From the NCBI GenBank assembly GCA_005239675.1, contig SBBO01000009.1, forward strand, positions 1-43,261: a DNA stretch of 43,261 bases, in the 5' to 3' direction. The notes under the pieces are model-generated. The model saw nothing but the letters and a program-made list of their open reading frames with translations. It was not told where the DNA came from and searched no databases. Origin of the DNA: Planctomycetales bacterium (GTDB taxonomy: Bacteria > Omnitrophota > Gorgyraeia > Zapsychrales > Zapsychraceae). A program made the position numbers and the translations under genes. This document shows positions 3,279-17,895 of the stretch, one piece after another. Positions within the stretch are counted from its first letter, which is position 1. Every line of letters starts with the position of its first letter.

Positions 3279-3318
3279 TATTTTGTTACGATGAAATCAG
3301 AAACCTTAGGAGAGATCA

Positions 3319-3516
3319 ATGACCATTAACATATCTTCTCAAGTCAAAGACTTGCGTAAAAAAATTGGTTTGACCCAAATAGAGTTTGCCAAACGAGTGG
3401 GGGTTGGCTTGCGTTTCTTAAGAGAACTTGAACAGGGCAAGACAACAGTAAGAATGGATAAACTTATGCAAGTCTTAGATTTTTTGGGATGTTACTTAGA
3501 GATAAAGAAAAAATGA
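3319..3516 (+). CDS. hipB: HipB-like HTH antitoxin/repressor
   Basis: A 65-residue XRE-family helix-turn-helix protein. Residues about 8-60 form the five-helix fold: LRKKIGLTQIEFAKRVGV, then the recognition segment GLRFLRELEQGK, then MDKLMQVLDFLGC. In HipB families the protein binds operator inverted repeats and autorepresses the operon. Four TACC/GGTA inverted repeats lie just upstream and are the obvious targets. AGGAGA about 6 nt before the ATG is a good ribosome site. The gene is first in the order hipB-hipS-hipT, 48 nt ahead of hipS. In characterised HipBST systems HipB contributes to the complex, while HipS is the antitoxin that neutralises the kinase. Confidence 0.85.
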   Translation: MTINISSQVKDLRKKIGLTQIEFAKRVGVGLRFLRELEQGKTTVRMDKLMQVLDFLGCYLEIKKK

Positions 3517-3564
3517 ATCACCATCGATTAAACATCCGAAAACTGATTTGATGGATACTAACCA

Positions 3565-3894
3565 ATGAGCATGATGAGAAAAGCCAACGTTTTTTACAAT
3601 AATGAAATAGCAGGATATCTCAGTGAATCTTTAGATGGGTATATTTTTCAATATGATCTTGAATTTTTAAAGAAAAATATACCGCTCTCGATTTCTCTGC
3701 CGCCTAGTCCAGAGCCCTACCATTCAAAAGAGTTGTTTCATTTTTTTAAAGGCCTTTTACCGGAAGGATGGTACCTGAATATCGTCACTACGACTCAGAA
3801 AATTGACAATAAAGATTATTTTGGGGTGCTAATCGGGACAGCGAGTGTGGATACAATCGGCGCTGTTACAGTGAGGAAGGAAAACCCATCATAA
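3565..3894 (+). CDS. hipS: HipS, separate HipA N-terminal subdomain (antitoxin)
   Basis: A 109-residue protein equal to the HipA N-terminal subdomain only (HipN/Couple_hipA). Family motifs are present: VFYNNEIAGYLSE near the start, ISLPPSPEPY (about 46-55), LFHFFKGLLPEGW (about 58-70), and the end IGTASVDTIGAVTV corresponding to the GxDxxGAV segment of HipA. In classical HipBA systems this region is fused to the kinase. Here a true stop (TAA) separates them, followed 20 nt later by the kinase ATG, and the kinase begins at the natural domain border. This is the HipBST arrangement, where HipS inhibits the HipT kinase. A broken hipA is less likely because both pieces are complete domains. Confidence 0.8.
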   Translation: MSMMRKANVFYNNEIAGYLSESLDGYIFQYDLEFLKKNIPLSISLPPSPEPYHSKELFHFFKGLLPEGWYLNIVTTTQKIDNKDYFGVLIGTASVDTIGAVTVRKENPS

Positions 3895-3914
3895 ACGAGA
3901 AGTTTCTTAAAGAG

Positions 3915-4754
3915 ATGTTTAATTCTTCCAAGCTGCCCAAGATTGATTTCGGTTTGGCAGACATATTGCAACAGGCTCAGAAATTGGTGGGGAAGCTATC
4001 TATCTCGGGTGTGCAGCCAAAATTATCCGTCAAACTGGACAAGAAGCAAAATTTGCTGATTGTTGTGAGTCAAGGAGGCGAATATATTTTAAAGCCGCAG
4101 ACCTCCACATTTGCCCATATCCCGGAGAACGAACAATGCTGCATGGACATGGCACAAGAGTTAGGCATCGATGCACCGCCTCATTGCTTGATTCCCTTAA
4201 AAGATAAAAGCCTTGCTTATGTGGTCCAGAGATTCGACAGAGAAAAAGGAGATAAGATTCATCAGGAAGATTTTGCGCAGATCCTTGAGGCCAATGATAA
4301 ATATAGGGGGTCGGTGGAACAGATAGGTCACAAACTCAAAGAAATATCTTCGGCCCCTGGTTACGATGCTCAACTTTTGTTTGAACGGGTTGTGTTTAAC
4401 TTTATTATTGCCAATGGTGATGCGCATTTGAAGAATTATTCTATATCATACAAAGGGGGCAATATTCGGTTAACGCCCGTTTATGATATCGTGTGCTCTC
4501 GACTTGTAATTCCTGACGAACAGGGAGAGTCTGCGATCAACATCAATGGCAAGAAAGATCGTTTATCAAGGGCAGATTTTGATAAATTAGCAGAGTATTT
4601 GAATATGCCGATTAAAGTGCGTTATGAGAAGTTCGCTGGAAAATTTGAAATCATGAAAAAATTTATCAAGGCTTCTTATTTTAGTAAAGCGGACCAGAAT
4701 AAATTTCTGGATATTATTAAAGAAAGATTGCATCGCTTAGGGTTATCGGAATAA
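3915..4754 (+). CDS. hipT: HipT serine/threonine-kinase toxin
   Basis: A 279-residue HipA C-terminal-type kinase without the N-terminal subdomain. It has the Gly-rich loop with an SIS motif (Ser29-Ile-Ser31, then GVQPK), Lys60 in EYILKPQ for ATP, the catalytic loop NGDAHLKN (Asp169, Asn174) and metal-binding Asp191 in TPVYDIV. HipT of enteropathogenic E. coli autophosphorylates the two Ser of its SxS motif and phosphorylates tryptophanyl-tRNA synthetase, halting translation; the same target here is only inference. All catalytic residues are intact. The operon is AT-rich compared with the cassettes before it and the cluster after it, suggesting acquisition as a unit. Confidence 0.83.
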   Translation: MFNSSKLPKIDFGLADILQQAQKLVGKLSISGVQPKLSVKLDKKQNLLIVVSQGGEYILKPQTSTFAHIPENEQCCMDMAQELGIDAPPHCLIPLKDKSLAYVVQRFDREKGDKIHQEDFAQILEANDKYRGSVEQIGHKLKEISSAPGYDAQLLFERVVFNFIIANGDAHLKNYSISYKGGNIRLTPVYDIVCSRLVIPDEQGESAININGKKDRLSRADFDKLAEYLNMPIKVRYEKFAGKFEIMKKFIKASYFSKADQNKFLDIIKERLHRLGLSE

Positions 4755-4945: not shown

Positions 4946-6112
4946 ATGTTTAGCGCAAAAACATTCAAGAAACTTTCTTACCTGCTGCAAGTCTTTTCCA
5001 AAATAGATGGCCGTTACCAGAAACGGTTGCGCTCCTGGGAAGATTTTAAGCGTATCCCAGTATTGGACCGCCAGGATGTTAAGGCGTTTACCCAAGCCAC
5101 TTTGATACGCGATGCTTTTAATGTTACGGCGACATCGGGGTCGACATCGTCTCGGCTGCTTGTTGCTCATTCCTGGGCGGCGTACGCCGCTCACCTGCGG
5201 CGTTTAGTTAAGATCTACCGCCATGTCGGCGCCAGGGCCGGCGTGCTGTGTTTGAATTTGTGTTCCTATGAATTAAATAGCGGGGGCCGACTTATGGAGG
5301 CCGCGTACAAAGCGGCAGGCGCTGGGGTAATCCCCTTAGGTCCGATCAGTACACCGGAAAAAGTCCTAGCCGCGGCCCAACTCGTTGCCACCTTCAAACC
5401 CACTATCGTTAATGCCTACACGAATCAGCTGTTCGATCTTTTCGACCTTGTTGGCCGCAAACATTCCATCCATCATTGTGTAGTCAACGGAGAACCTCTA
5501 TGGCCTGAGTATCGTCGGCGTATAGAACATATGGGTGGGGTCCGTATCCACGATCATTACGGCGCGATGGAGGTCTCCGGGTTAGCGATTGCCAGCAAAC
5601 CTGATGATGAATATATGAAAGTTTTTTCTGATGGATTACTCTTGGAGGTAGTACAGAGTTCTGGAAAGGCGTCCGAAACCGGGGTTGGCGATCTTTTGGT
5701 GACCGATTTGAATAATACGTGCATGCCGTTTATCCGTTATCGCATCGGGGACAAAGTGGAGTTGGTGCGTCGTTCTAAGACGTTATGGATTAAAGTGCTT
5801 GGCCGCAGCGAGGATAGCCTACTTATTAATGGGGTGGTTGTCTTAAAGCGCGAATTGATCCGCGCCGTCAATAATTTTCTAGGCCACCCGCGCTTCTTTT
5901 TTGTCCTTGTAAAGCATTCTTTGCAATATTATGATAAACTTATTATTAACGTGGTTGATGAAGCCCCGAGGCCGTTTGCGGCCTTGACCCAAACAGTGGC
6001 GAGGACCACGGGAATGGACCGCTGTATCGATGTCAGGGCATATCATGGCGATATCCCTAGGACACCCAATGGAAAGATTAGATACTTTATTGATGCAAGA
6101 AAAAAGGCCTAA
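4946..6112 (+). CDS. Adenylate-forming enzyme, PaaK/CapK-like (ANL superfamily)
   Basis: A 388-residue ANL enzyme, shorter than typical phenylacetate-CoA ligase (about 430). Visible motifs are the phosphate loop TATSGSTSSRL (61-71), HDHYGAMEVSG (202-212, the A5-like motif), MPFIRYRIGDKVEL (260-273, A7/A8 with Asp269) and PRTPNGKIRY (371-380) with Lys377, the catalytic lysine of the first half-reaction. It should therefore activate a carboxylate with ATP, then pass it to CoA, an amine or another acceptor. CapK-type members occur in capsule and natural-product loci. It heads a run of overlapping genes and overlaps the first radical SAM gene by about 44 nt. The substrate is unknown. Confidence 0.82.
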   Translation: MFSAKTFKKLSYLLQVFSKIDGRYQKRLRSWEDFKRIPVLDRQDVKAFTQATLIRDAFNVTATSGSTSSRLLVAHSWAAYAAHLRRLVKIYRHVGARAGVLCLNLCSYELNSGGRLMEAAYKAAGAGVIPLGPISTPEKVLAAAQLVATFKPTIVNAYTNQLFDLFDLVGRKHSIHHCVVNGEPLWPEYRRRIEHMGGVRIHDHYGAMEVSGLAIASKPDDEYMKVFSDGLLLEVVQSSGKASETGVGDLLVTDLNNTCMPFIRYRIGDKVELVRRSKTLWIKVLGRSEDSLLINGVVVLKRELIRAVNNFLGHPRFFFVLVKHSLQYYDKLIINVVDEAPRPFAALTQTVARTTGMDRCIDVRAYHGDIPRTPNGKIRYFIDARKKA

Positions 6113-7127
6113 GAGCTTTAAGGTCCATTATACCTGGATCTATGTGACCGAGCGCTGCAACTTGCATTGCGATTATTGTTTTTTTCGCCACATGCACGGT
6201 CGGGAGATATCCTTAGATGCAGTCGAGCAGCTTTTTTTGCTGTTTGAAAGAGAGGAAACGGCCCCCACCACCTTGATCTTTAGCGGGGGGGAGGCGTTCT
6301 TAGCCAAGGAGAACCTATTTAAGATTTTAAACGAGGCCCACCAGCGTTTAAAAGAGACATCTTTGCATATTCAAACAAACGGTTTGTTGATCAACGCAGC
6401 GGATATTGTCCAGTTACGGGAGTTGGGGGTCAGTCTTGAGTTTGGCATTGATGGTAATTCTCAAACAACGCTGGAACACCGTTGCGGGTTAAAACCGGCG
6501 TCTTTTGAGAAGTTGACCAATACCATTGCTCAATGCGTGGCCGCGGGCATCTCGTGTGGCTCTACCATGACGGTTCATCCCCATGAAGTTGAACACATGG
6601 AGCAGGGGTTAGATTTCTTAAGAAGTATAGGGATGCCTCATGTGGACATAACCCCTGCCGCTTTTATGCCATGGACGCCTGAACTGGTTGCCTCTTTTAA
6701 GAAGAATTACCTGGCGCTGGCCCGCTGCCGCGAACGGCGACGGGTCATGTATGCCAATGAGGATATTGAGTGGATCAGTCCAGGGGTCATGGATCTAAGT
6801 CTTCACCCGCCGAATTATTTGTTTGGAGGCGATGCCTTCCTGTGCCTTCCAGAGGAGAAACGACTCGAGTTTACCCTTTGGAATCCTGTTAATGGTCAGT
6901 TCCGGCCGGAGATCATGTCGATCTATGAAGACGCCTACGCAAAAATGCACCAACAGCACCCACGACTTCCTTACCGCGAACATGTCTGCCACAGCTTTGA
7001 GTTGATGAACACGATGATGGGCACAGAATATATGAACACCTGGGCGATCAACGATATTATGCGGTTTTTAACAAAGACCCATTTGAGATTAAGGCTTAAG
7101 AAATATGGACATGATCAAGGGCATTAA
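6069..7127 (+). CDS. Radical SAM enzyme A (cluster)
   Basis: The start at 6069 is chosen because AGGA lies about 8 nt upstream; the frame is open to 6030, and 6093 is a later option. From 6069 it has 352 residues. The cluster motif CNLHCDYC gives Cys30, Cys34 and Cys37, which bind the SAM-coordinating [4Fe-4S]. The SGGEAF motif (72-77) contacts the SAM amino group, and QTNG and GIDGN mark later strands of the barrel. The C-terminal part has only scattered Cys, so no SPASM or Twitch auxiliary cluster is evident. The gene is sandwiched between the ANL enzyme and a second, similar radical SAM gene, overlapping both. The reaction is unknown. Confidence 0.85.
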   Translation: MERLDTLLMQEKRPKSFKVHYTWIYVTERCNLHCDYCFFRHMHGREISLDAVEQLFLLFEREETAPTTLIFSGGEAFLAKENLFKILNEAHQRLKETSLHIQTNGLLINAADIVQLRELGVSLEFGIDGNSQTTLEHRCGLKPASFEKLTNTIAQCVAAGISCGSTMTVHPHEVEHMEQGLDFLRSIGMPHVDITPAAFMPWTPELVASFKKNYLALARCRERRRVMYANEDIEWISPGVMDLSLHPPNYLFGGDAFLCLPEEKRLEFTLWNPVNGQFRPEIMSIYEDAYAKMHQQHPRLPYREHVCHSFELMNTMMGTEYMNTWAINDIMRFLTKTHLRLRLKKYGHDQGH

Positions 7128-8148
7128 TCATGTATGGCTATTTTTTACAGACCGTTGCAATTTAGGCTGTGGGTATTGTTTCTATAAATACCGGACCCAG
7201 CAGCAGGTGATCACGCTCAAGACTTTCGAGAATATCTTGAATTATATCCGTCCTGTTGCGCCGGTGGAATTTATCTTTTCGGGAGGTGAGCCGTTAATGG
7301 ACGCTGAACGACTCAAGGAAATGGTCACGATCATACGTCAGGAGGGTTTAAGTCGGTATATCTCCGTTCAAACCAACGCGACCTTGCTGGATGAGTCTTT
7401 GATGGAGTTTTTTCTGCAGCATGGGGTAAATCTTGAAGTCGGGATTGACGGGGATGAAGCCACCACCCAGCGCAATAGGCCTGGCATTGGCGAGTATTAT
7501 TATCGAGATATCGTCAGAGGCGTTGCTCGGGTGATCCACGCGAAGGGGCCCATGACCGCGACCATGGTGGTGCATCCCTCTAGCGTTGGGAAACTCTTTG
7601 AGAATGTGCAATATTTAGCCGCCATGGGATTAAAATCATTGGAAGTCCATCCCGCCTTCCTTGAGGTGTGGGGGCCAAGGTCTTCCGCTATCTTTTTAGA
7701 TCAATATCGTCGGGTTTGTGCGTGGGAATTAAGAGAAGGACGCCATGGGCTGATTGGCCGGGGGTATAGTGAGCCATCGCAGGGGGGTTGGGACCTGTTA
7801 TCCGTTCCTAGCGGGAAGATCCTGGCAAACTGGTTGTTGCTATCTTTTCCCGAGGAGGTACGTGAGCATCTTTACTTGATGGATTTTAGTAATGGATCGT
7901 CGGGAAAATTCCTGCCGCAGGCAAGAGGGTATTTTCAGGCATTACAAGAACATATGATGAGCCATCCGAATTGCAGTTATCGCAGTATTAGCAATTTTAA
8001 TGCCTCTTATGCGGTCAAGACACCGCCCGGGCGTCGGTACGAAGAGAGGGTTAAGCATTACATGGACCTATGTGAATGGATTGAGGCCATTGATCATAAG
8101 ATGATGAGGACGCTACCATGGCAACGATCAGGTACGAAAGTCTCTTAG
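7105..8148 (+). CDS. Radical SAM enzyme B (cluster), paralogue of A
   Basis: A 347-residue radical SAM protein with CNLGCGYC (Cys18, Cys22, Cys25) near the N-terminus and SGGEPL (59-64). It tracks enzyme A segment by segment: FIFSGGEPLM/LIFSGGEAFL, QTNATLL/QTNGLLI, LEVGIDGD/LEFGIDGN, TMVVHPSSV/TMTVHPHEV and EVHPAFLEVW/DITPAAFMPW. The two are therefore tandem, diverged paralogues. The C-terminal half lacks a Cys-rich SPASM region. It overlaps the end of enzyme A by 23 nt and the following aminotransferase by 31 nt, so all three are likely translationally coupled. A shared substrate scaffold with two successive radical steps is an inference. Confidence 0.85.
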   Translation: MDMIKGINHVWLFFTDRCNLGCGYCFYKYRTQQQVITLKTFENILNYIRPVAPVEFIFSGGEPLMDAERLKEMVTIIRQEGLSRYISVQTNATLLDESLMEFFLQHGVNLEVGIDGDEATTQRNRPGIGEYYYRDIVRGVARVIHAKGPMTATMVVHPSSVGKLFENVQYLAAMGLKSLEVHPAFLEVWGPRSSAIFLDQYRRVCAWELREGRHGLIGRGYSEPSQGGWDLLSVPSGKILANWLLLSFPEEVREHLYLMDFSNGSSGKFLPQARGYFQALQEHMMSHPNCSYRSISNFNASYAVKTPPGRRYEERVKHYMDLCEWIEAIDHKMMRTLPWQRSGTKVS

Positions 8149-9233
8149 TTGAGCAAGCCTTGGCGCGGGAATACGCATCAGCGATGGAGTGTGCCCTGAA
8201 AGGCATGAGTGGGCTTAATGATATTAAACGGATGGTTCAGGATTATGAGAAAAAATTCGCCACTTATATCGGAGTTAAGAATGCGGTAGCGGTCAATTCC
8301 GGGAGCGACGCCTTGAAGATGGCCTTGTTGGCCGCGGGGGTGAATCCCGGTGATGAGGTTATTGTCCCGGATTTGACTTATCAGGCGGTCGCCTTGGCGG
8401 TATTTTATTGCGGGGCTAAACCGGTGCCCGTGGATGCCTCTAGGCACGATCTACAAATGGACCCGGCAGCTGTTGAAGCTGCGATGACCGCCAGGACCAA
8501 GGCGGTCATCGCAGCCCATATGTTCGGGCGTCCCTGTGATGTGGAGCGCATTGGTAGGCTCTGTCAGGATCAAAAGATCGTTTTTATCGAGGATGTTTGC
8601 CAGGCGGAGAGTTCGAAGTATAAGAACCGGATGCTGGGCAGCTTTGGTGATATTGCCGTATTTTCTTTTTCCTATTACAAACCATTATCGTCCTGCGCTG
8701 GCGGCGGCGGGATGGTTGTTTTTAATGAGGAACGATACCAGCGCATTCGTCATTGGATGGAAGATTGGCGCGATGACCGTGAGTTGTTAAAATTAGGACA
8801 GCGTTTCGCCCCCATGTCATTCCTGGACCTGATTGCCCTGCAGGTCAAATTCACTCATCTCAAGGAAATCATCGCGTCCCGTCAAAAGATCAAGACGTAT
8901 TATGAGGATGAGCTTGAGCTGATCGATGGCTTGACAATTTTTAGGGATCGTCCTGATAGAGAGAGTGTCCCGCAAAATTTTGTTGTTTGCTGCGAAAATC
9001 GAGATGAGTTTTTTGATTTCTTGACGAGTCAGCAGGTCATGGCCCAGAGGCCTTACTTATCCCTTCATGAGAGACAGGCGTTCAGGGGAGCTTTAAAAGA
9101 GAGATTTCCTGTCAGCCAATGGTATGCGTCAACGGCCTTGCACCTTCCGTTATATTCGTTCATGAGCGTGACCAAGGCCGTTGGCGTTGTGGAATGTTGC
9201 CGGTCTTTTTTTGTTGGGAGTGCTCGTTCATGA
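8118..9233 (+). CDS. DegT/DnrJ/EryC1-family PLP aminotransferase
   Basis: A 371-residue fold-type I PLP enzyme. Visible are NSGSDALKMALLA (60-72, phosphate loop), VIVPDLTYQA (81-90), VFIEDVCQAE (155-164) with Asp159 for the pyridine nitrogen, and FSFSYYKPLSS (182-192) with Lys188 as the Schiff-base lysine, followed by a Gly-rich GGGGM. This family transaminates keto-sugars or cyclitols (dTDP-/UDP-keto-sugars, scyllo-inosose) or makes AHBA. The VPDLTYQA and GGMV segments are typical. It points to an amino sugar or aminocyclitol step in the cluster. It overlaps radical SAM B at the start and ends in an ATGA overlap with radical SAM C. Confidence 0.87.
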   Translation: MATIRYESLLVEQALAREYASAMECALKGMSGLNDIKRMVQDYEKKFATYIGVKNAVAVNSGSDALKMALLAAGVNPGDEVIVPDLTYQAVALAVFYCGAKPVPVDASRHDLQMDPAAVEAAMTARTKAVIAAHMFGRPCDVERIGRLCQDQKIVFIEDVCQAESSKYKNRMLGSFGDIAVFSFSYYKPLSSCAGGGGMVVFNEERYQRIRHWMEDWRDDRELLKLGQRFAPMSFLDLIALQVKFTHLKEIIASRQKIKTYYEDELELIDGLTIFRDRPDRESVPQNFVVCCENRDEFFDFLTSQQVMAQRPYLSLHERQAFRGALKERFPVSQWYASTALHLPLYSFMSVTKAVGVVECCRSFFVGSARS

Positions 9234-10243
9234 AGCCATTACTTAATGATATTACCATCGAAATAACCAATCGCTGCCAACTGCACTGTCAGCATTGCGG
9301 GATATGGGCGGAAAAAGAGCGCTACGAGATGAGCGCTTCGATGGTTATCCGCACGCTGCGAGAATTGCTTGGCCGTTATAAGATTTATTTTGTATCCTTG
9401 ACCGGGGGTGAGCCGTTCTTAAATAAGGATTGCGGTCGATTGTTAAAGGCTGTGTCTTTTTTTCGTGATCGCGGGGATATCACCGGATTCGGCGTTTACA
9501 GTAACGCGGCTTATTTTGAAGGAGTCCGGCGCGCGTTCTCTACCTATGGCGCGTATCTGCGCGGGATGCATATGGGGATCAGTATCGATGGTGGAGAAAA
9601 AACGCATGATCGTTTACGTGGTCCGGGGGCGTACCAAAAAACGTTGAAGACCATTGACTGGGTCGCCGAGAACTTCGGTAAAGACATCGTATTGGAATTT
9701 AAATTTACCATCAACCAGATCAATTATGCCGAATTAGGCGATGTCTATCATCTGGCCCGCCGTTTTAAGGCGCGGTTTTCTCCCAAGATCATGGAGACAG
9801 GCGTATTCGATTACTATCACCGCCATGAAATGCCCAATACCGACACCCTAGCTTCGATGACCCCTGAAATCATCGAGAGTGTCCACCGGCAAGTGGACGC
9901 CCTACTTAAAGACGATTATCCCGGTGTTAACAGGGAATTGGTCGAAGCCATGATGGTATTGTTATCCGCTGGCAAGCAATGTATCCGCGCTTGCGCCACC
10001 CCGGCCCGGTCTCTTTTTATCACTTCCCGGCGAGATGTCCACCCTTGTCTTTACCTACCGTCAGCAGGCAAGGTCAGCGGTGACGGAAAATTACCGCAAG
10101 AATTAGACTGTGTGCGTAAGAAACACGCGGATAATGCCGCCCTCGGTCATTGCCCGCGTTGCTTTGCCTATCATGGATTTTTGAAAGAATTTAATTTACA
10201 GTATCTTGAACGACAAGACGCGCCGCAACATCAGCCCCATTAA
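9230..10243 (+). CDS. Radical SAM enzyme C with Cys-rich C-terminus (cluster)
   Basis: The ATG at 9230 overlaps the stop of the aminotransferase as ATGA and places the cluster motif CQLHCQHC (Cys16, Cys20, Cys23) normally near the N-terminus; the frame is also open to 9119. The protein has 337 residues. TGGEPF (58-63) follows. The C-terminus holds Cys251, Cys255, Cys273, Cys294 and a CPRC pair (308-311), which suggests a SPASM/Twitch-like auxiliary iron-sulfur cluster, often seen in peptide- or sugar-modifying radical SAM enzymes. It ends the first operon and converges with the minus-strand glycosyltransferase, overlapping it by 53 nt. Confidence 0.83.
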   Translation: MKPLLNDITIEITNRCQLHCQHCGIWAEKERYEMSASMVIRTLRELLGRYKIYFVSLTGGEPFLNKDCGRLLKAVSFFRDRGDITGFGVYSNAAYFEGVRRAFSTYGAYLRGMHMGISIDGGEKTHDRLRGPGAYQKTLKTIDWVAENFGKDIVLEFKFTINQINYAELGDVYHLARRFKARFSPKIMETGVFDYYHRHEMPNTDTLASMTPEIIESVHRQVDALLKDDYPGVNRELVEAMMVLLSAGKQCIRACATPARSLFITSRRDVHPCLYLPSAGKVSGDGKLPQELDCVRKKHADNAALGHCPRCFAYHGFLKEFNLQYLERQDAPQHQPH

Positions 10244-11393
10244 ACCAATCAGCGGGAGCTGGAGTAGGGCGCCGGCGGGTCATTTGTTCTTTGATCGCAA
10301 AAGCGAGGGAATCGCCTGTCATGGTGTTACCATCAAGGACAAGACTTGAGAAGTGTTTTTGCAGCAGCTGAGCTCGGGCGATTTGGTCATTGGTGGGCAT
10401 TGAAAAATTTGTGTTTCGATAGGGAATGATGACCGATGGTATGCCATAGCGCATCAATTGGACCGATGTATTGTAGCCGCATAAGCTAACCGAGACCCGG
10501 CAATGACGCAGGTGATCATCAAGATTATCTAAATAATTGGTTAGAAAGACACGCCCTTTGTCTTGGGGCTTAAGGCAGGATTGGAATAGGGCCATCTCTT
10601 CAGGAGAGGTGGCTGGGCCGCAGGCGATGATCGTAGAGATATTGGCCCTGATGTGGCGCTGGGCCTCAATGGCAAGCTTAATCAACTTTGGATATACAGC
10701 GCCACCACCACGACTGATGACCAGGGTTTTTGACTCGGCATTCTTTTGGGTCGGCAATGGCGTGCCGCCGGTTATTATTTTTGTCGGAAAGATATAGCCG
10801 GTGTAGACAATCTTTTTTCTTAAGTCTTTGATAATAGCAGCGTAGGAGCCAGATAAGATCGGGGATTGCAGGGTGGCCTGGATGTATTGAGTTTCAAGTT
10901 CCGGGGGGGTATGGATCAAGAAAGTATCATAGAAGGCAAAGATAGCCCGCTGCAAGGCTGCGAACTTTTGATTTTGAAACCGGTCTAGATTAACGAGTAA
11001 GGGATATCCAATGCTGGCCATAATGCGAGCGCCTCTTTTGTAGAGGTAGCGTAAAGGGGCCAGGAGTTCTGGCATATAGGCTAGCCGTCCGAAAGGGAAG
11101 AACTCGGTAATAAAAACATCTGGGCAAAAATCAGCTGCTGCCTTGATAATAAATTGGGCGCGTTTTTGGAAATATACGGGTTGATGGTGTGATTTAAAAC
11201 TGGTACGGTTATCAAAAGGAAAAGGAATATCCAGCACCCGGCAGCCTTTTGGAAAACAGATGAAGGGTTGCGGTTCCGCGCCCTGGAGGACTAGTACTTC
11301 TGCGCCATAATGAGCTAGGGTTCTGGCCAGGGTGATTGTTCGGGTAGTATGCCCCAGGGTCTGTTTGTGAGTGTAATGAAGTAAGACGCGCAT
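10191..11393 (-). CDS. Predicted GT-B glycosyltransferase (COG4671/MurG-like)
   Basis: A 400-residue protein with the N-terminal Rossmann start MRVLLHYTHKQTLGHTTRT, where GHTTR matches the GH.TR loop of GT-B enzymes that act on membrane-near acceptors. A second Rossmann half begins about residue 225 with TLVISRGGGAVYPKLIKLA. Late motifs CGYNTSVQLMRYGIPSVIIPYRN (about 305-330) are the nucleotide-sugar binding loop typical of MurG and COG4671 proteins. It probably transfers a sugar to a cluster product. It is transcribed opposite to its neighbours. The region between its start and the deacetylase gene (11394-11428) holds a palindromic -10-like AGTATACT. Confidence 0.78.
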   Translation of the reverse strand: MRVLLHYTHKQTLGHTTRTITLARTLAHYGAEVLVLQGAEPQPFICFPKGCRVLDIPFPFDNRTSFKSHHQPVYFQKRAQFIIKAAADFCPDVFITEFFPFGRLAYMPELLAPLRYLYKRGARIMASIGYPLLVNLDRFQNQKFAALQRAIFAFYDTFLIHTPPELETQYIQATLQSPILSGSYAAIIKDLRKKIVYTGYIFPTKIITGGTPLPTQKNAESKTLVISRGGGAVYPKLIKLAIEAQRHIRANISTIIACGPATSPEEMALFQSCLKPQDKGRVFLTNYLDNLDDHLRHCRVSVSLCGYNTSVQLMRYGIPSVIIPYRNTNFSMPTNDQIARAQLLQKHFSSLVLDGNTMTGDSLAFAIKEQMTRRRPTPAPADWFNGADVAARLVVQDTVN

Positions 11394-11421
11394 TGTTTGG
11401 TTAGGCTATTCATAGTATACT
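11393..11421 (+). promoter_or_regulatory. Promoter for the 11429 operon (leaderless)
   Basis: TTGTTT (11393-11398), a 17 bp spacer and TATACT (11416-11421). The ATG at 11429 is only 7 nt beyond the -10 box, so the transcript would start at or next to the start codon. No Shine-Dalgarno is present. The -10 lies in the palindrome AGTATACT (11414-11421), which could also serve the divergent glycosyltransferase gene. Confidence 0.55.
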
Positions 11422-11428
11422 GTAATAT

Positions 11429-12139
11429 ATGATCCGTGCACGTCTTTTTATTCGCAACGACGATGTCTGGACGTTAGATAAGAATTTTCGTTTCTTTTTT
11501 GATCTGGCCATTGACCGTAAGCTACCGGTCATCTATGCGGTCATTCCTGGAAAAATGGAGCAGGGGCTTATTCGGTTCCTGTGTCGGGCCAAGGAAAAGA
11601 CACCCGGCTTGCTGGATATCGTCCAGCACGGATGGCTTCATGTGAACCATTCGACAAACGGTAGTCAAAAATATGAATTTGGGGAATCACGGTCTTTCCA
11701 GCGGCAGCGTGAAGACATTCAGCGAGGGTTAAAACAGATGCGTTTGGCGTTCGAGGACCATTTCATGCCAGCGTTTGTCCCCCCTTTTCATGGTTATGAT
11801 GAGCGGACATTACGGATACTAGAGCAAGAGAACTTTCAGATCTTTTCTGCTGGAGGCCGTAAGCCACAGATAAAATCACGATTAGTAGAATTGCCGTCTA
11901 GAATTTCTTTTAGTAGATATGACAGTCAAAAGGTTTCGATTAATACCGCTGGGGAGATGATGGCCATGCTGGTAAGGGACATAGGCCGTAGGCCATTGTC
12001 TGGTATAGTGACTCATCACGCAGATTTTGTGACAGCGGCATCCCGTAAAGAATTGACACAATTTTTTAGTATTGTCGAGGCGTTAAAGAACACAAAAGAA
12101 TGGCGAATATTGTTATTTTCCGATCTCTGGGGGAAATGA
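11429..12139 (+). CDS. Polysaccharide-deacetylase-like protein
   Basis: A 236-residue protein with a NodB-like pattern: FIRNDDVW near the start (Asp pair for metal and base), VQHGWLHVNH (about 65-74) supplying metal His, PAFVPPFHGYDERTL (about 113-127) like the R/P-PF.GY active-site strand, and the late ...GIVTHHADF. This fits deacetylases that remove N- or O-acetyl groups from amino sugars, close to the DUF2334/WalW-type branch. No signal peptide is seen, so it may act on a cytoplasmic or lipid-linked sugar. It starts the second short operon of the cluster and is followed 3 nt later by radical SAM D. The substrate is unknown. Confidence 0.72.
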   Translation: MIRARLFIRNDDVWTLDKNFRFFFDLAIDRKLPVIYAVIPGKMEQGLIRFLCRAKEKTPGLLDIVQHGWLHVNHSTNGSQKYEFGESRSFQRQREDIQRGLKQMRLAFEDHFMPAFVPPFHGYDERTLRILEQENFQIFSAGGRKPQIKSRLVELPSRISFSRYDSQKVSINTAGEMMAMLVRDIGRRPLSGIVTHHADFVTAASRKELTQFFSIVEALKNTKEWRILLFSDLWGK

Positions 12140-12142
12140 TCC

Positions 12143-13333
12143 ATGGTTAATACGCAAACCCTAAAAACGTTGGCCCCCCATATTAGAGATATGTTGCGCG
12201 TCCGAAGTTCGATCTTGGGACGGCCATTGATCGGTCCTCAGTCGATCAATATTCACGTGATTCAGGCCTGTGACCGCAAATGCGCGTTCTGTTGGTATTT
12301 TTCTCCACTGATTTCATCACCCCCCAAGAGGGTCATGCTGGATTATGCGGTACTGGAGGGCGTGATTGATGATTGTCATGAGATCGGAGTTGATGAGATC
12401 AATCTCGAGGGTGGAGAGATCGTCCTATATCCTTTTACGGAGCAGGCATTTCACAAGATCAAGGATCTGGGGATGCGGTTAAAGGCGTATAGTCATCTCG
12501 ATTTTGAATCAAAACACTTGCGGTATTTGTGCCTGGCCGACCGTTTGATTGTTAATTTTTCTGCAATGACCGAAGAATCCTACCGGCGTGTTCATGGGAA
12601 GATAAAAGGGTCGATGGCAAATTTGATTAAGCATTTGGATCGGTTGTTGGTTGCTCGACGCAAATATGGCAAGCCAAAGATCGTCCTGACATTCATTGCC
12701 TATGATCATAATTACAAGGAATTGCCCGCGCTGCTGGAGCTTGCCCAACAGCGTGAAATCGACAGGGTCTATATTCGCTTTTTTAAGGCCACCAAAGAAA
12801 TGAAGGAACTTGTTTTTTCAAAGCAGTCCCTAGTAGAATTCCGTGAGATTGTTGAAAATGCGCTGGGGGCCGGTTATACATTTCAACATAACCTGGAGAA
12901 TCTAAGAAATATCATTGATAATGGACATCAATTTGAGAATATCGTTGCCCTAACGTCAACGCCCATGCATAATGACCGCCTGTTCGTTTATGATTCAACC
13001 AGCGGCAAGAAAGTCAATTGTCAGGTAGGTTGGTTTTATAGTTTCATGGATGAGAATGGTCGGGTCATCGCGCCTTGTGATAGTGTGGGCGTGTGTATTG
13101 CCGGTAACGTTTATGAGCGTCGTTTTAAGGACATCTGGTTTGATAACGACTTTTTGCATAATACGCTAAGAGAGGCCAGCGCGGGGATTCACACCTGTTC
13201 GTCCAAGTGGCAGGAATGCCGGTATTGCGGTTATGTCCCTGTTAATAAAGCTCTTAATGACAAAATCAATCGTGTTCGTGGTGAAACCCTCGCAGTGCCA
13301 ACGGAAATGGATGATCAGGCCAAGAAGGCATGA
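12143..13333 (+). CDS. Radical SAM/SPASM-like enzyme D (cluster)
   Basis: A 396-residue protein with cluster motif CDRKCAFC (Cys43, Cys47, Cys50) and EGGEIV (89-94) in the GGE position. The C-terminal third carries a SPASM-like pattern: a Cys before GWFYSFMDENG, then APCD, GVC, GN.YE..FKDIW, and finally C...W..CRYC. SPASM proteins hold extra [4Fe-4S] clusters and modify peptides or sugars, and some polysaccharide-locus members have this layout. It begins 3 nt after the deacetylase gene and overlaps the next gene as ATGA. It is unlike A and B in sequence, so it is a separate lineage. Confidence 0.85.
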   Translation: MVNTQTLKTLAPHIRDMLRVRSSILGRPLIGPQSINIHVIQACDRKCAFCWYFSPLISSPPKRVMLDYAVLEGVIDDCHEIGVDEINLEGGEIVLYPFTEQAFHKIKDLGMRLKAYSHLDFESKHLRYLCLADRLIVNFSAMTEESYRRVHGKIKGSMANLIKHLDRLLVARRKYGKPKIVLTFIAYDHNYKELPALLELAQQREIDRVYIRFFKATKEMKELVFSKQSLVEFREIVENALGAGYTFQHNLENLRNIIDNGHQFENIVALTSTPMHNDRLFVYDSTSGKKVNCQVGWFYSFMDENGRVIAPCDSVGVCIAGNVYERRFKDIWFDNDFLHNTLREASAGIHTCSSKWQECRYCGYVPVNKALNDKINRVRGETLAVPTEMDDQAKKA

Positions 13334-14298
13334 CCGATGCTGATGGATATATAGAGGTTGGGCATGAGATCGATGAGGGCGCAGCCTGGGATTATATCCG
13401 CGATGGCTATCTCCTGGCCCCACGAACAGTTTTAAAGGGACGAATAAAATTCCCTCCACCTCTATTACGAGCCACCCCATTTGATTTAAATAATCTGACA
13501 GGCGCCCTCCAACAAACACTTGTCAATGCCATGGGCCCTATGGCAGGGTTACCTTTAGCAGTTATGTTCAGCGGCGGATTTGACTCGATGCTTATCTGGC
13601 TTTTGGCCCAGCAGGCTGGGGCCAAGGTTACTGCCGTGACTGTCCAATTTGATGATTTTAACTCCCTGACGGTGGCGGAGTCAACCCGGCTTGCTCATCA
13701 AGCAGGAATTGCCCATCATATCCTTCATGTTAAGGTGGTGGAATTTTTTTCTGCCTTTGAGGCGCTTGTGGGCATCACCGATGAGCCCATGCTGGATTTG
13801 GATTTGGCGGTTGTTTATGCAGCTCTAAAGAAATATGACCTTAGGATCGCTGGAAACACGTTTATTTCGGGGATGGGGAGCTGCCAGTGGTTCGGGGATC
13901 AGTCCGCAGTGGCGTGGCCAGGGGGCCTGGCAGGGCGTCTGGATTGGGCCATGACCAGTGAGCAAGCGCATCAAAAGGTAGCTAAGGCCCATGGGTGCAG
14001 TTTTGTATTTCCATTTTTGTCAGCCCCCATGTTGGCATTATCACAACAGATTCCAGCAGCGATGAAAAAAGATAAAAGGCTATTGCGTTCACTGGCTACC
14101 GGAAGCACGATTTCCCATCATAGTGGCCAGCATGAGATACAAGTTCCGGAATCGATACGGCGCATTTTGGTAAAGATGTACGGTCATCGGGCCTGGCCCG
14201 GGCCTGTCTTGGGCCACGAAAAACGCGGCCATGTGACTGAACAGGTGTTGCGTCAAATCGTGTTGGGACTATGGCAGGAGAAATGGAAGGGTTCGTGA
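13330..14298 (+). CDS. Asparagine-synthase-like ATP-dependent ligase without glutaminase domain
   Basis: A 322-residue PP-loop protein. The motif MFSGGFDSM (79-87, SGGxDS) binds ATP pyrophosphate. Residues about 20-45 (WDYIRDGYLLAPRTVLKGRIKFPPP) match the linker that precedes the synthetase domain in AsnB. ISGMGSCQWFGDQ matches the position of the TGDGGDE loop but has lost its acidic residues. The whole N-terminal Ntn-glutaminase domain is absent, so it should use free ammonia or another amine and form an amide or similar bond via an adenylate. Relatives include beta-lactam synthetase and amidotransferases of polysaccharide and antibiotic clusters. It starts in an ATGA overlap with radical SAM D. 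Confidence 0.8.
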   Translation: MTDADGYIEVGHEIDEGAAWDYIRDGYLLAPRTVLKGRIKFPPPLLRATPFDLNNLTGALQQTLVNAMGPMAGLPLAVMFSGGFDSMLIWLLAQQAGAKVTAVTVQFDDFNSLTVAESTRLAHQAGIAHHILHVKVVEFFSAFEALVGITDEPMLDLDLAVVYAALKKYDLRIAGNTFISGMGSCQWFGDQSAVAWPGGLAGRLDWAMTSEQAHQKVAKAHGCSFVFPFLSAPMLALSQQIPAAMKKDKRLLRSLATGSTISHHSGQHEIQVPESIRRILVKMYGHRAWPGPVLGHEKRGHVTEQVLRQIVLGLWQEKWKGS

Positions 14299-14379
14299 GT
14301 AAATTATTTTTGTCCGCAGTGACGGCCTCTGGGGGCTAGAAAATTCTGTCCCCAACTCTTCAGCAGTTCTGTTTAAGGC

Positions 14380-15468
14380 TTAGAATCTCCTCGCAGTTCC
14401 GCTATTTTTTAATACGTCCATAATAGATTCTTTGCTGGCCGAAAGTTGCAGCCTATAGGCCTTCACAAGGTTCGGGGGATGTTGAGCAAGGCCAGGGGAT
14501 TTTTCACGTTGGTCATTCTTCAAATATGCTTTGACTAGACCCAGGGTAATCAAGGCGTTGAGAACGAGACGATACCTTGGCTCCATCCTATGTTGGGCAA
14601 GGTAGTCTTTAATGATGTTGTTGGTTGTGGTGGTGGGTATTTTAAACTGTAGACAGGAAATGACCAGACTTGCCAGGTCGGAGAGAACGTAATCTTCTTG
14701 GATGTGGGATAGATCAAGGGTATAGACGGTTTCTTGGGCGATGAGCATGTTGCTTAAGGAGGTATTATTATGAAGCCATTGGCGGGTAAAAAGTTGTCGA
14801 TGGTTCTGGTAGGTTCGGCAGGCATCCAGTAAAGCGGCCTCAATTATTCTTTTTTGATTATAAGGCTTAATGGCGCCAGATGCCTTGGCAAGGTCATTGA
14901 TGGTTGTTGCGAAACGTTTTTTTTGTTTTGAGAAAGGATGTCCTGCATAAACAGATAAGAGGTTTTTAAGAGAGAGCATGGCGCTATTGATTTGATGGAT
15001 GACATGACTTTGTTTAAGGCATTGCCATGCCCCCAATCCATCAATGTATAAAAAGCAGGTAACGAGCCGTTCATTGCTGGCCAAAAAGGGTCGACCATCG
15101 TGGCCTGTGCGCATCAAAGGTGTTGGGAAACGATGTTTTGTTAAGAAGCGGTTGAGGGTGTAATCCATAGTGATTCTTTTGGCCGCATCGATCGGGTAGA
15201 ATTTAAGCGCGTATTGTCCACAGGTCGTCACCACAAAGACAATGAAATTGGAGTGAGAAATAATAATGCCCTTTTCTTTTTTATAATGTTTGATCTTTCC
15301 GATGGCAAAGAAGCGGCAGATTCGTTTGATATCATCGGGGGATGGATCAAAACGTCGTTTATCAAACAGTATATGATCGACACCACCAATAAAATTATTA
15401 CGATTGTCGTTTATTGGTAGATTATCGCTACAGGTCAGAGGAGCAGTGCTATTGTCATTTACGCACAT
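14380..15468 (-). CDS. APH/CotS-fold kinase-like protein with altered catalytic loop
   Basis: A 362-residue protein with an aminoglycoside-phosphotransferase/choline-kinase-like fold: the strand YALKFYP with Lys89 (ATP lysine), the catalytic-loop position WLHNNTSLSNML (231-242), and VYTLDLSHI with Asp252 (DFG-like metal ligand), followed by DLASL. The loop normally reads HxDxxxxN; here it is His233-Asn-Asn235-x4-Asn240, so the catalytic base Asp is Asn. It may be a pseudokinase, a binder of a cluster intermediate, or use a non-standard base. It lies opposite to the preceding ligase gene and may be cotranscribed with the pilin-like gene 70 nt upstream. Confidence 0.68.
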   Translation of the reverse strand: MCVNDNSTAPLTCSDNLPINDNRNNFIGGVDHILFDKRRFDPSPDDIKRICRFFAIGKIKHYKKEKGIIISHSNFIVFVVTTCGQYALKFYPIDAAKRITMDYTLNRFLTKHRFPTPLMRTGHDGRPFLASNERLVTCFLYIDGLGAWQCLKQSHVIHQINSAMLSLKNLLSVYAGHPFSKQKKRFATTINDLAKASGAIKPYNQKRIIEAALLDACRTYQNHRQLFTRQWLHNNTSLSNMLIAQETVYTLDLSHIQEDYVLSDLASLVISCLQFKIPTTTTNNIIKDYLAQHRMEPRYRLVLNALITLGLVKAYLKNDQREKSPGLAQHPPNLVKAYRLQLSASKESIMDVLKNSGTARRF

Positions 15469-15537
15469 CGAGGAAATTTGGCCTTGAGGACGCTAAGGTT
15501 GCTCTGTGGCCAAAGGCATTAGGGCTATAGAGAGGGA

Positions 15538-15744
15538 TCATCGGTCAGTGACATTGGCCTCCAGCAACGGGTCGGTCATGGCATCAATAACGGAGCCTTC
15601 CCAGCCCTTTATTTGCGCATTCCAGGAGCGGATGACATAGGGGCCGCCGATGATAATCCCAGCCATAATCAGCATCATGAGGATGATGTATTCGATGGTG
15701 TGCTGGGCGGTCTTTAGTCTTAATTTAGATGGTGGTTTGAGCAT
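15538..15744 (-). CDS. Class III signal-peptide pilin-like protein
   Basis: The start at 15744 is preferred although the frame is open to 15822, because a clear promoter (15769-15797) lies inside the longer version. The result is 68 residues: a basic N-terminus MLKPPSKLRLKTA, then QHTIEY (14-19), which fits the Q-x-x-x-E-Y rule for class III prepilins cleaved before Gln14, then the hydrophobic helix IILMMLIMAGIIIGG and a short polar tail. Such proteins form Flp- or archaellin-like pili or remain as minor pseudopilins. No pilus assembly genes are nearby. It is the only small secretable protein next to the radical SAM cluster. Confidence 0.68.
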   Translation of the reverse strand: MLKPPSKLRLKTAQHTIEYIILMMLIMAGIIIGGPYVIRSWNAQIKGWEGSVIDAMTDPLLEANVTDR

Positions 15745-15768
15745 AGAAGTGGCATCCTTGCCACTATA

Positions 15769-15797
15769 AGTATAGGGTATAGACTCTGAATATTCAA
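15769..15797 (-). promoter_or_regulatory. Promoter of the pilin-like gene
   Basis: On the minus strand: TTGAAT (15797-15792), a 17 bp spacer and TATACT (15774-15769). Transcription would start near 15762, about 18 nt before the ATG at 15744. This supports the shorter start of that gene. Confidence 0.65.
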
Positions 15798-15826
15798 TAA
15801 TTATGAGGTATTCGTTATACAAGCTA

Positions 15827-15835
15827 TGTTATACT
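15827..15835 (+). promoter_or_regulatory. Extended -10 promoter of the antiporter operon
   Basis: TGT-TATACT at 15827-15835 is an extended -10 element with no clear -35 box. The ATG at 15846 lies 10 nt beyond it and has no Shine-Dalgarno, so the leader would be only a few nucleotides. Confidence 0.45.
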
Positions 15836-15845
15836 GCTTTCATTT

Positions 15846-17609
15846 ATGGGGCCAATCAACGAACAGCATCTATTTATTTTCTTAGTTCAGATCTTTCTTT
15901 TGCTCATCTTGGCAAAGGGCACAGCAGATTTTTTTACCCGCTGGAAACAGCCTGCCTTTACCGCTGAGATGCTGGTAGGGCTTCTGGTGGGGCCAAGTAT
16001 TTTGGGGCGGTTTTTCCCTGATATTTATCGGATAGTCTTCCCCGATGATATTGTCCAGAAAACCATGCTGGAGACGATCGCGTGGATAGGATTATTTTTC
16101 TTTCTTTTAAATACTGGCCTTGAGGTAGACTTCTCTAGCGCCTGGCGCCAGCGCGGGGACGCCCTGACGATTGCCTTGACAGATATCATGGTGCCGATGA
16201 GTATTTCTTTTGCGGTATGTCTGTTTCTTCCGGACCAGTATTTGGTTGATCCCTCCCAGCGGATGATCTTTGCGCTCTTCATGGCAACGGCGATGACGAT
16301 TAGTGCCATGCCGATTACCGCCCGAGCCCTTCATGATCTGCGTATTGCGAAGACCGATTTAGGATTTTTGATTATCTGTGCGCTATCAGTCAACGACATT
16401 ATTGGCTGGCTGATATTTACAATCATATTGGGAATTTTTACGCAGGCCGGCATTAATAGTTTGAAATTGGCAGGAATTCTCACCTTAACATTGGGTTTCA
16501 CCGTCTTTTGTTTGACGGCTGGCCGGCACGTGGTTGATTTTGTGTTTTCCAAGGTCAAGGCACGACAAACGAGCCCTACGGTCGTGCCGCTGACATTGCT
16601 CTGGCTGCTGGGACTTTTTTGTGGGGCCGTAACTCAGAAGCTCGGTATCCATGCGCTCTTCGGTTTTTTTCTGGCGGGGATTATGGCTGGCGAGGCCAAG
16701 GCTATCTCCGAGCGCACCCGTCAGGTCATTTCCCATATAGTCTATGCCATTTTTGTTCCGTTGTTTTTTGTCAACATCGGCCTCAAGGTTGATTTTCTTA
16801 AGAATTTTGATGGTTTCATTGTTTTATTGGTGACGGTCGTTAGTATGGTAGGAAAATTTCTGGGGGCATGGCTCGGTGTTCATTGGACAAGGCTCCCTCC
16901 GACCAACCGTCTACCCATTGCTATCGCTCACGTCCCCGGCGGCTCTATGGAGATTATCGTTGGGTTGATTGCCTATGAACATCATTTGATCACAGAGCCG
17001 GTGTTTGTCGCTATCGTATTCGGCGCGCTTGTGTCTTCCGTTATCGTTGGTCCTTGGCTTAGTTATGCCTTGACAAAACGCCGCCGGATTAGCCTCCTGG
17101 AATATTTTTCTCATCGTAGCATTATTGCCGACTTGAAGGCCACCAGCAAGGAGGCGGTCATTGCTAGATTGTGCGATCTGGTTGCCAGTCAAGAGGAGGC
17201 TGGCGAGGCGGAAACTTTTTACAAATCTGTCTTGGAGCGCGAGCATATCATGGGCACTGCCCTGGAAGAGGGGATTGCCGTACCCCATGCCCGGATCGCT
17301 CTCTTGCGACGGCCTGTGATTGTGTTCGGTCGGTCACCCGCAGGGATAGAGTGGAATTCGCCGGATGGTAAGCCAACACAGTTTATATTTCTAATCCTCA
17401 CCCCAACGCATGAAGACGAGTTTCAGGTGCAGATACTGTCATCTATTGCCCGGGCCATGAGCGACAGCCAGATCCGTAAAAATATTCTGGAGGCCGGGGA
17501 TGCCGTCACCATTTGGGGCATCCTGCGCGCGGTGTTTGTATCAAGCGAGATTGTAAGGAAACAAGACCAGGAAATAAGACCAAGCCCCGGTGTTCCCAGA
17601 GATGAATAG
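15846..17609 (+). CDS. CPA2 Na+/H+ (or K+/H+) antiporter fused to PTS EIIA domain
   Basis: A 587-residue fusion. Residues about 1-410 form a 12-13-helix CPA2 exchanger, with NDIIGW (Asn183-Asp184) as the ion-binding ND-type motif in the sixth-helix region and a second half ending in AIAHVPGGSMEIIVG. Residues about 420-565 form a fructose/Ntr-type EIIA domain with ALEEGIAVPHAR, where His481 is the phosphoryl-accepting histidine. The exchanger moves H+ against Na+ or K+ across the inner membrane. The EIIA part suggests control by phosphorylation from HPr or NPr, linking ion balance to carbon or nitrogen state. It heads an operon of ion, iron and redox genes. Confidence 0.88.
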   Translation: MGPINEQHLFIFLVQIFLLLILAKGTADFFTRWKQPAFTAEMLVGLLVGPSILGRFFPDIYRIVFPDDIVQKTMLETIAWIGLFFFLLNTGLEVDFSSAWRQRGDALTIALTDIMVPMSISFAVCLFLPDQYLVDPSQRMIFALFMATAMTISAMPITARALHDLRIAKTDLGFLIICALSVNDIIGWLIFTIILGIFTQAGINSLKLAGILTLTLGFTVFCLTAGRHVVDFVFSKVKARQTSPTVVPLTLLWLLGLFCGAVTQKLGIHALFGFFLAGIMAGEAKAISERTRQVISHIVYAIFVPLFFVNIGLKVDFLKNFDGFIVLLVTVVSMVGKFLGAWLGVHWTRLPPTNRLPIAIAHVPGGSMEIIVGLIAYEHHLITEPVFVAIVFGALVSSVIVGPWLSYALTKRRRISLLEYFSHRSIIADLKATSKEAVIARLCDLVASQEEAGEAETFYKSVLEREHIMGTALEEGIAVPHARIALLRRPVIVFGRSPAGIEWNSPDGKPTQFIFLILTPTHEDEFQVQILSSIARAMSDSQIRKNILEAGDAVTIWGILRAVFVSSEIVRKQDQEIRPSPGVPRDE

Positions 17610-17895
17610 CCATCAAAAGACACGGCGTAAATTTAAACGGCAAGGTCCGTTTCATGTGTATATCGTTATCTGTAGTGACGGGACGTATTACACCGGTGCG
17701 ACCGGCAACCTTAAAAAGCGCATCACACGGCACAATCAAGGACGGGGTGCCAAGTATGTGCGCGGCAGACGTCCGGTTGAGCTCGTCTATGCCCATCCGT
17801 ACCCTGATTATAAGCTTGCCTTGACCGCCGAGCGTAAGATCAAGACACTAACCCGCAGGGGAAAAGAGGCATTGATGGTTTTAAAGGAGAAATGA
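17602..17895 (+). CDS. GIY-YIG domain protein (YhbQ/UPF0213-like)
   Basis: A start at 17602 (ATGAATAG, overlapping the antiporter stop by 8 nt) is preferred over 17590. It has 97 residues. The GIY-YIG-type core reads VYIVICSDGTYYTGATGNLKKRITRHNQGRGAKYVRG, with the catalytic Tyr in YTG, Arg in KKR and a late Glu in TAERKIK. Stand-alone YhbQ-like proteins are suspected nucleases; their role is not settled. The basic N- and C-termini fit nucleic-acid binding. It overlaps the next gene as ATGA. Confidence 0.85.
   Translation: MNSHQKTRRKFKRQGPFHVYIVICSDGTYYTGATGNLKKRITRHNQGRGAKYVRGRRPVELVYAHPYPDYKLALTAERKIKTLTRRGKEALMVLKEK

Follow-up and report, generated by a model that had tools for sequence, protein, structure and literature searches.

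We analysed a 43,261-nucleotide (nt) stretch of DNA, hereafter the window, which is the entire contig SBBO01000009.1 (C45 in our numbering) of assembly GCA_005239675.1, a 1.32-Mb, 50-contig metagenome-assembled genome (MAG; contamination 2%) labelled Planctomycetales bacterium and placed by GTDB in the Omnitrophota family Zapsychraceae. The window carries a gene cluster with four radical S-adenosylmethionine (SAM) enzymes, here named A to D, together with an adenylate-forming (ANL) enzyme, an aminotransferase, a glycosyltransferase (GT), a deacetylase-like protein, an amide ligase and a kinase-fold protein (Table 1). An original prediction for this DNA had listed eleven genes, four of them with CxxxCxxC radical SAM motifs, and we found all eleven as open reading frames at the predicted positions, the motifs included. 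The tight spacing that it had described was reproduced when inner ATG starts were used, with overlaps of 44, 23, 31 and 4 nt followed by a 3-nt gap and a 4-nt overlap. The gene labels agreed with our family scans, in which the Pfam matches to Radical_SAM (four times), DegT, Glyco_tran_28_C, DUF2334 and Asn_synthase all lay above the gathering scores. The grouping had to be corrected: the first operon comprises ANL-A-B-DegT-C, with the GT gene and that of the aminoglycoside phosphotransferase (APH)-fold protein on the opposite strand. The eleventh gene was withdrawn from the cluster altogether, as it encodes a Flp/class-III pilin of the chromosomal backbone that congeners carry beside the same antiporter gene.

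Table 1 Genes of the radical SAM cluster and the adjoining pilin gene, in window coordinates (PLP, pyridoxal 5'-phosphate)
Feature	Coordinates	Strand	Basis of the assignment
ANL, PaaK-like adenylate-forming enzyme, 388 aa	4946-6112	+	PaaK models and structures; conserved motifs
Radical SAM A	6030-7127, likely start 6069	+	PF04055 1.3e-19; SPASM-type fold without auxiliary Cys
Radical SAM B, paralogue of A	7105-8148	+	PF04055 4.1e-18; auxiliary Cys lost
DegT/DnrJ/EryC1/StrS PLP aminotransferase	8118-9233	+	PF01041 260 bits; catalytic-Lys motif
Radical SAM C, one auxiliary cluster site	9119-10243, likely start 9230	+	PF04055; invariant extra Cys
GT-B glycosyltransferase, MurG-like C half	10191-11393	-	Glyco_tran_28_C PF04101 36.8 bits
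DUF2334, polysaccharide-deacetylase-like	11429-12139	+	PF10096 39.8 bits; metal motif
Radical SAM D with SPASM domain	12143-13333	+	PF04055 and weak PF13186
AsnB-like amide ligase without glutaminase	13330-14298	+	Asn_synthase PF00733 54.7 bits; FSGGFDS
APH-fold kinase-like protein	14380-15468	-	PF01636 at cut-off; HNN replaces catalytic HxD
Short Flp/class-III pilin, backbone gene, possible landing site	15538-15822	-	Synteny in congeners

Profiles of radical SAM A and of the ANL enzyme, run separately, recovered the identical 12 of 384 Omnitrophota genomes with a clear score gap, the thresholds having been set after the gaps were seen. All ten families are present and syntenic in genomes G058 (locus L022) and G052 (L024), most of them occur in G075, G053, G064, G042, G071 and G048, and diverged, larger versions of the cluster are found in G134 and G105. 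This synteny in relatives and the shared distribution of A and ANL bear out the earlier proposal that the genes stay together, and the cluster is almost certainly a biosynthetic unit. Since A and ANL are missing from G048 and G084, which retain B, DegT, C, GT and DUF2334, the ANL-A pair looks, from its distribution, like a separable module. Methyltransferase/DUF3419-like proteins are paired with a further radical SAM family, c15, in several of the clusters (L037:2220-3071 and L029:8253-9119).

The CxxxCxxC motif is kept throughout all four radical SAM families in alignments of relatives. No conserved set of auxiliary Fe-S cysteines was found in A or B (alignments of 12 for A and 14 for B). Radical SAM C has C292, C310, C345 and C348 invariant beside the motif in 14 relatives, and in D the residues C43, C47, C50, C293, C312, C359 and C362, which make up CxxxCxxC and the SPASM cysteines, are invariant in 11 sequences. 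Judging from AlphaFold models of A and B (predicted local distance difference test 85.8 and 89.6, respectively), the predicted folds of both are nearest to the SPASM peptide maturases CteB, ChlB and anSME (template modelling score about 0.6-0.7). The likeness to these maturases and to PapB includes the C-terminal part, although A and B are without the auxiliary-cluster cysteines, and against the PapB ranthipeptide model NF047865 they score 71.7 and 89.9 bits, under the 340 cut-off. The original prediction had looked to radical SAM enzymes that act on sugars in antibiotic pathways; A and B now appear less like such enzymes, having a SPASM-type fold closest to peptide maturases and having lost the auxiliary cysteines. 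Relatives of the radical SAM proteins outside Omnitrophota were weak, at 20-36% identity in a scan of genome contigs.

The other proteins of the cluster were assigned with varying ease. The ANL protein scores 28.8 bits against Pfam AMP-binding, slightly under the cut-off of 29.9, and its identity is firmly based on matches to PaaK models and to PaaK structures (structure match E 4.5e-27). In an alignment of 12 relatives, the phosphate-binding TSGS(T/S), the HDHYGAMExSG motif and a C-terminal GK vary little or not at all. In fold and core motifs it resembles the PaaK-type ANL ligases, such as phenylacetate-CoA ligase and natural-product PaaK-like enzymes (e.g., AjiA1), but with 71.9 bits against a PaaK cut-off of 646 it forms a separate subfamily. 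The aminotransferase keeps its catalytic-Lys motif SFSYYKP(L/I)SSC, with the PLP lysine, in the window and in 16 related loci. The GT family occurs in almost all related clusters, at times in two copies, and most members of the DUF2334 family have the metal motif (N/D)DD(V/A). The description of the AsnB-like ligase as glutaminase-less held up well: the window protein retains FSGGFDS and has no N-terminal nucleophile (Ntn) domain, and its longer relatives are without the catalytic Cys. Ligases of the beta-lactam synthetase and lasso-cyclase type likewise combine a synthetase domain containing FSGGFDS with the lack of a catalytic Cys, whereas the window protein has lost the entire N-terminal domain and matches no family model over cut-off. 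The APH-like protein scores exactly at the PF01636 cut-off (23.2 bits in both cases); its HxD motif reads HNN in the window and the nearest relatives and is retained as HAD in G134 and G105, and the protein is possibly inactive or altered.

None of the five congeners carries radical SAM A, and trees of ANL, A and B place the window gene among sequences of families f7 and f4, within a surrounding group that has starred support. Because the congeners are without the cluster and the trees place it among sequences of another family, we conclude that it was acquired horizontally, as an island with its right edge next to the pilin. Synteny with congeners G002, G004 and G005 covers the pilin, antiporter and endonuclease genes (about 15,556-17,877), and a major facilitator superfamily gene farther along in the window shares 71-75% identity with its counterparts in congeners. 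On the left flank, an alpha/beta hydrolase (943-1821) had no counterpart among 64 related genomes (E<=1e-20), which implies that this flank is foreign too or that the island extends beyond the cluster. Left of the cluster (3300-4754), adjacent frames encode a short helix-turn-helix antitoxin-like protein (3565-3894) and a HipA-like protein (3915-4754), and this toxin-antitoxin-like module could mark the edge of a mobile stretch.

Recurrent neighbours of the cluster include an A24 peptidase, a further radical SAM family, c9, and radical SAM family 17. In the genome from which the window comes, the A24 peptidase, a related GT, radical SAM 17 and two small proteins are found together on another contig, C49. 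Radical SAM 17 is HxsB of the His-Xaa-Ser (HxS) system, as the C49 protein (L138:10191-11603, outside the window) scores 375 bits against TIGR03978, whose cut-off is 370. Across the phylum, HxsB matched 35 of 384 genomes, comprising 11 of the 12 cluster genomes and 24 of the 372 others (Fisher p about 8e-12, a value that ignores relatedness and, the cluster genomes being kin, overstates their independence); the congeners G001, G004 and G005 have no HxsB. In nine genomes (G058, G134, G042, G064, G051, G053, G232, G084 and G071) HxsB lies on the same contig as A or B and at most 20 kb away, and a stretch of about 12 kb in G380 holds diverged ANL, C, D, DegT and GT genes with those for A24, radical SAM c9, HxsA, HxsB and HxsD. 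Radical SAM genes reach a density of 4-9 per 20 kb at most HxS or cluster loci, whereas neighbouring or unrelated stretches have none.

With the HxsABCD system as defined in NCBIfam (TIGR03976-TIGR03978 and the HxsA families), the source genome has in common an HxsB over cut-off, and it also encodes an HxsD-like protein and a small H-x-S repeat peptide, both below the cut-offs of their models; in other genomes the genes for these three stand beside related clusters. The HxsD-like gene adjoins HxsB and is conserved in many genomes. Three proteobacterial plasmid loci combine hxsB and hxsC with hxsD, a small peptide or both, among unrelated neighbours and no sugar or ligase genes, whereas the Omnitrophota version has no HxsC above cut-off (TIGR03977, 267.9 bits; 0 of 31 genomes) and adds A24, several radical SAM enzymes, ANL, DegT, GT, DUF2334, AsnB-like and pilus genes. 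That radical SAM A, the sole match to the HxsC model at E<=1e-10 in its own genome, could be an HxsC was not supported, its 58 bits being far from the cut-off and at the level of the weak matches in eight control genomes. Separately, the HxsB loci L151 (G253), L153 (G254), L156 (G221) and L155 (G034) have 6-9 radical SAM genes per 20 kb without the ANL/A module, as members of a wider family of HxS loci dense in radical SAM genes. Proteins of families c29, c90 and c94, which contain Cys and are probably exported, also recur beside HxsA or HxsB (L138:9040-9906, L034:12053-12952 and L143:7083-7871).

The A24 peptidase follows a similar distribution. In a hand-picked list of genomes, a profile of this family (A6) matched 17 of 18 with the cluster and 4 of 24 others, all four of which have HxsB; 21 of 22 genomes with the cluster or HxsB thus contained it, compared to 0 of 20 in which neither was detected. 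The profile was built from seven cluster loci, which makes the test partly circular; of the 11 cluster genomes that did not contribute to it, 10 match as well. None of the five congeners has this A24 family. The HxsA-like peptides found beside HxsB at Omnitrophota loci contain 1-15 H-x-S/T/N triplets, above expectation in nearly all; the peptide of the window's own genome has 4, and nearly all of its relatives have 3-15. In cluster-type peptides, the segment ...EDGFVSKE... is followed by a hydrophobic stretch and resembles a prepilin signal, with G, then F at +1 and E at +5; DEDG|FVSKE is accordingly a candidate prepilin cleavage site.

Pilins were searched with a small hidden Markov model, since a motif regular expression had missed divergent ones. 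Those with Cys-rich tails adjoin the cluster in G058, G053 and G071 and related HxS loci in G057, G045 and G006. Type IV pilus assembly genes flank these regions, with PilM and a secretin on one side and PilB/PilC types on the other in G058, and are found likewise in G071; Cys-rich pilins and assembly genes of these types flank the loci in G058, G071 and G057. Long Cys-rich C-terminal parts distinguish class-III/Flp-type pilins at L130:11672-12700, L026:1183-2835, L141:14981-16225 and L139:3480-4400 from the short window copy. The adjacency of pilin and APH-like genes in the window recurs in G058. The window pilin was also considered as cargo of the cluster, a candidacy weakened by the congeners that carry this pilin without the cluster.

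We consider it likely that the cluster serves together with the HxS/A24 system. More specifically, we propose, with a probability of about one half, that it forms the accessory biosynthetic half of an expanded HxS system with a link to pili, whose product would be an amino-sugar-decorated, radical-modified peptide. The precursor would be a small HxsA-type peptide that starts with a basic part, continues with the conserved segment ...(D/E)GFVSKE... and its hydrophobic stretch, and ends in H-x-S/T/N repeats. HxsB, the HxsD-like protein and the additional radical SAM proteins A to D would cross-link or otherwise modify this precursor, while the ANL enzyme would activate a carboxylic acid, DegT would give an amino group, probably on a sugar, the GT would transfer the sugar, DUF2334 would deacetylate and the glutaminase-less AsnB would form an amide. 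The dedicated A24 prepilin-type peptidase might cut either this precursor or a pilin that partners it. The product may be exported or displayed on the cell surface, where a type IV pilus would perhaps carry it. The product suggested by the original prediction, a glycosylated amino compound or surface sugar, is possible and not established; it misses the coupling to HxS, A24 and type IV pili, and in view of this coupling the target is more likely a modified peptide or pilin.

Several observations weigh against the proposed HxS-linked peptide system, in addition to the kinship of the cluster genomes and the lack of HxsC described above. In the source genome the cluster lies on C45 and the HxS genes on C49, which amounts to shared presence and not adjacency. 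Both small C49 proteins fall below the cut-offs of their models, the 145-aa HxsD-like protein with 31.6 bits for TIGR03976 (E 1.6e-07; cut-off 50) and the 94-aa HxsA3-like protein with 22.9 bits for NF038309 (cut-off 65). Furthermore, the 24 genomes that carry HxsB without A or ANL indicate that HxS does not need this set of genes. Finally, divergent HxsA peptides lose the Glu at +5, and HxsA peptides often have an A-x-A site past the hydrophobic stretch, as would fit cleavage by signal peptidase I and not by A24.

In one alternative explanation, the cluster makes an amino-sugar-bearing decoration of a surface polysaccharide or lipid, independently of HxS, with both located in the same variable pilus-linked region. 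Consistent with this are the DegT, GT and DUF2334 genes of the window, a YdjC deacetylase in G058 and heptosyltransferase-like GT9 proteins in G071 and G064; moreover, ANL, AsnB and deacetylase types occur in exopolysaccharide clusters. However, the Pfam scan of the ten proteins in the window, with the related loci scanned in part, gave no flippase, polymerase or initiating transferase, and neither the number of radical SAM enzymes nor the tight co-occurrence with HxsB and A24 would be explained. We regard a surface decoration of this kind as rather unlikely. It is also improbable, and somewhat more so, that the substrate is a type IV pilin with a Cys-rich tail instead of HxsA, with A24 acting as its private prepilin peptidase. 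Such a role would fit the pilin that adjoins the cluster in the window and those in the six genomes given above, as well as the pilus assembly genes beside the clusters, but the window pilin is short, has no Cys-rich tail and is present in congeners without the cluster, and the search of the other loci revealed no such pilin close to the cluster.

A free small molecule, aminoglycoside- or nucleoside-like and made by radical SAM enzymes acting on sugars, would be a third possibility. DegT beside radical SAM recalls the pairs DesI/DesII and BtrS/BtrN, and A and B have a remote structural likeness to DesII, BlsE and viperin. Nonetheless, their nearest folds are those of the peptide modifiers CteB, ChlB and anSME, and the co-occurrence with HxS and A24 would have to be accidental, which renders this explanation very unlikely. 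A chance gene collection or an assembly artefact, for which one could cite the protein at 943-1821 without a match in 64 relatives and the MAG contamination of 2%, deserves next to no credence given the synteny in many genomes, including the closed genome G134, the co-occurrence of A and ANL, the genus backbone on the right flank and the pilin-APH adjacency shared with G058.

As the original prediction had supposed, no pathway with this gene set was found in the open-access literature, which also yielded nothing relevant on Omnitrophota radical SAM clusters, on radical SAM enzymes with a prepilin peptidase or on radical SAM enzymes with pilin-derived ribosomally synthesized and post-translationally modified peptides. 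PMC9062424 credits Haft and Basu with the HxS motif, for which HxsB and HxsC are named 'putatively' as the maturation proteins. Seymour et al. describe Tad pili and predation in Velamenicoccia (PMC10066038), and the searched text of that paper makes no mention of radical SAM or biosynthetic gene clusters. The cluster is present in G134, a match to the closed genome of strain LiM of Ca. Velamenicoccus archaeovorus (NZ_CP019384), a reported predator of archaea in enrichment culture. In its fullest and most tentative form, our proposal would amount to a new pilus-linked peptide system, in which H-x-S peptides undergo private A24 processing, cross-linking by at least four radical SAM enzymes and amino-sugar decoration and are displayed on the surface of ultra-small Omnitrophota, this predator included; we think it doubtful that all of these elements hold together.

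The HxS system was named from sequence, and we found no report of its product in the open-access literature. The cluster described here ties it to defined tailoring enzymes, a candidate processing protease and pilus genes, and probably makes a peptide or surface structure of an unusual kind, modified by sugar and radical chemistry and so far undescribed. If this is true, peptide modification would be coupled to sugar chemistry in a phylum for which there is very little biochemistry.

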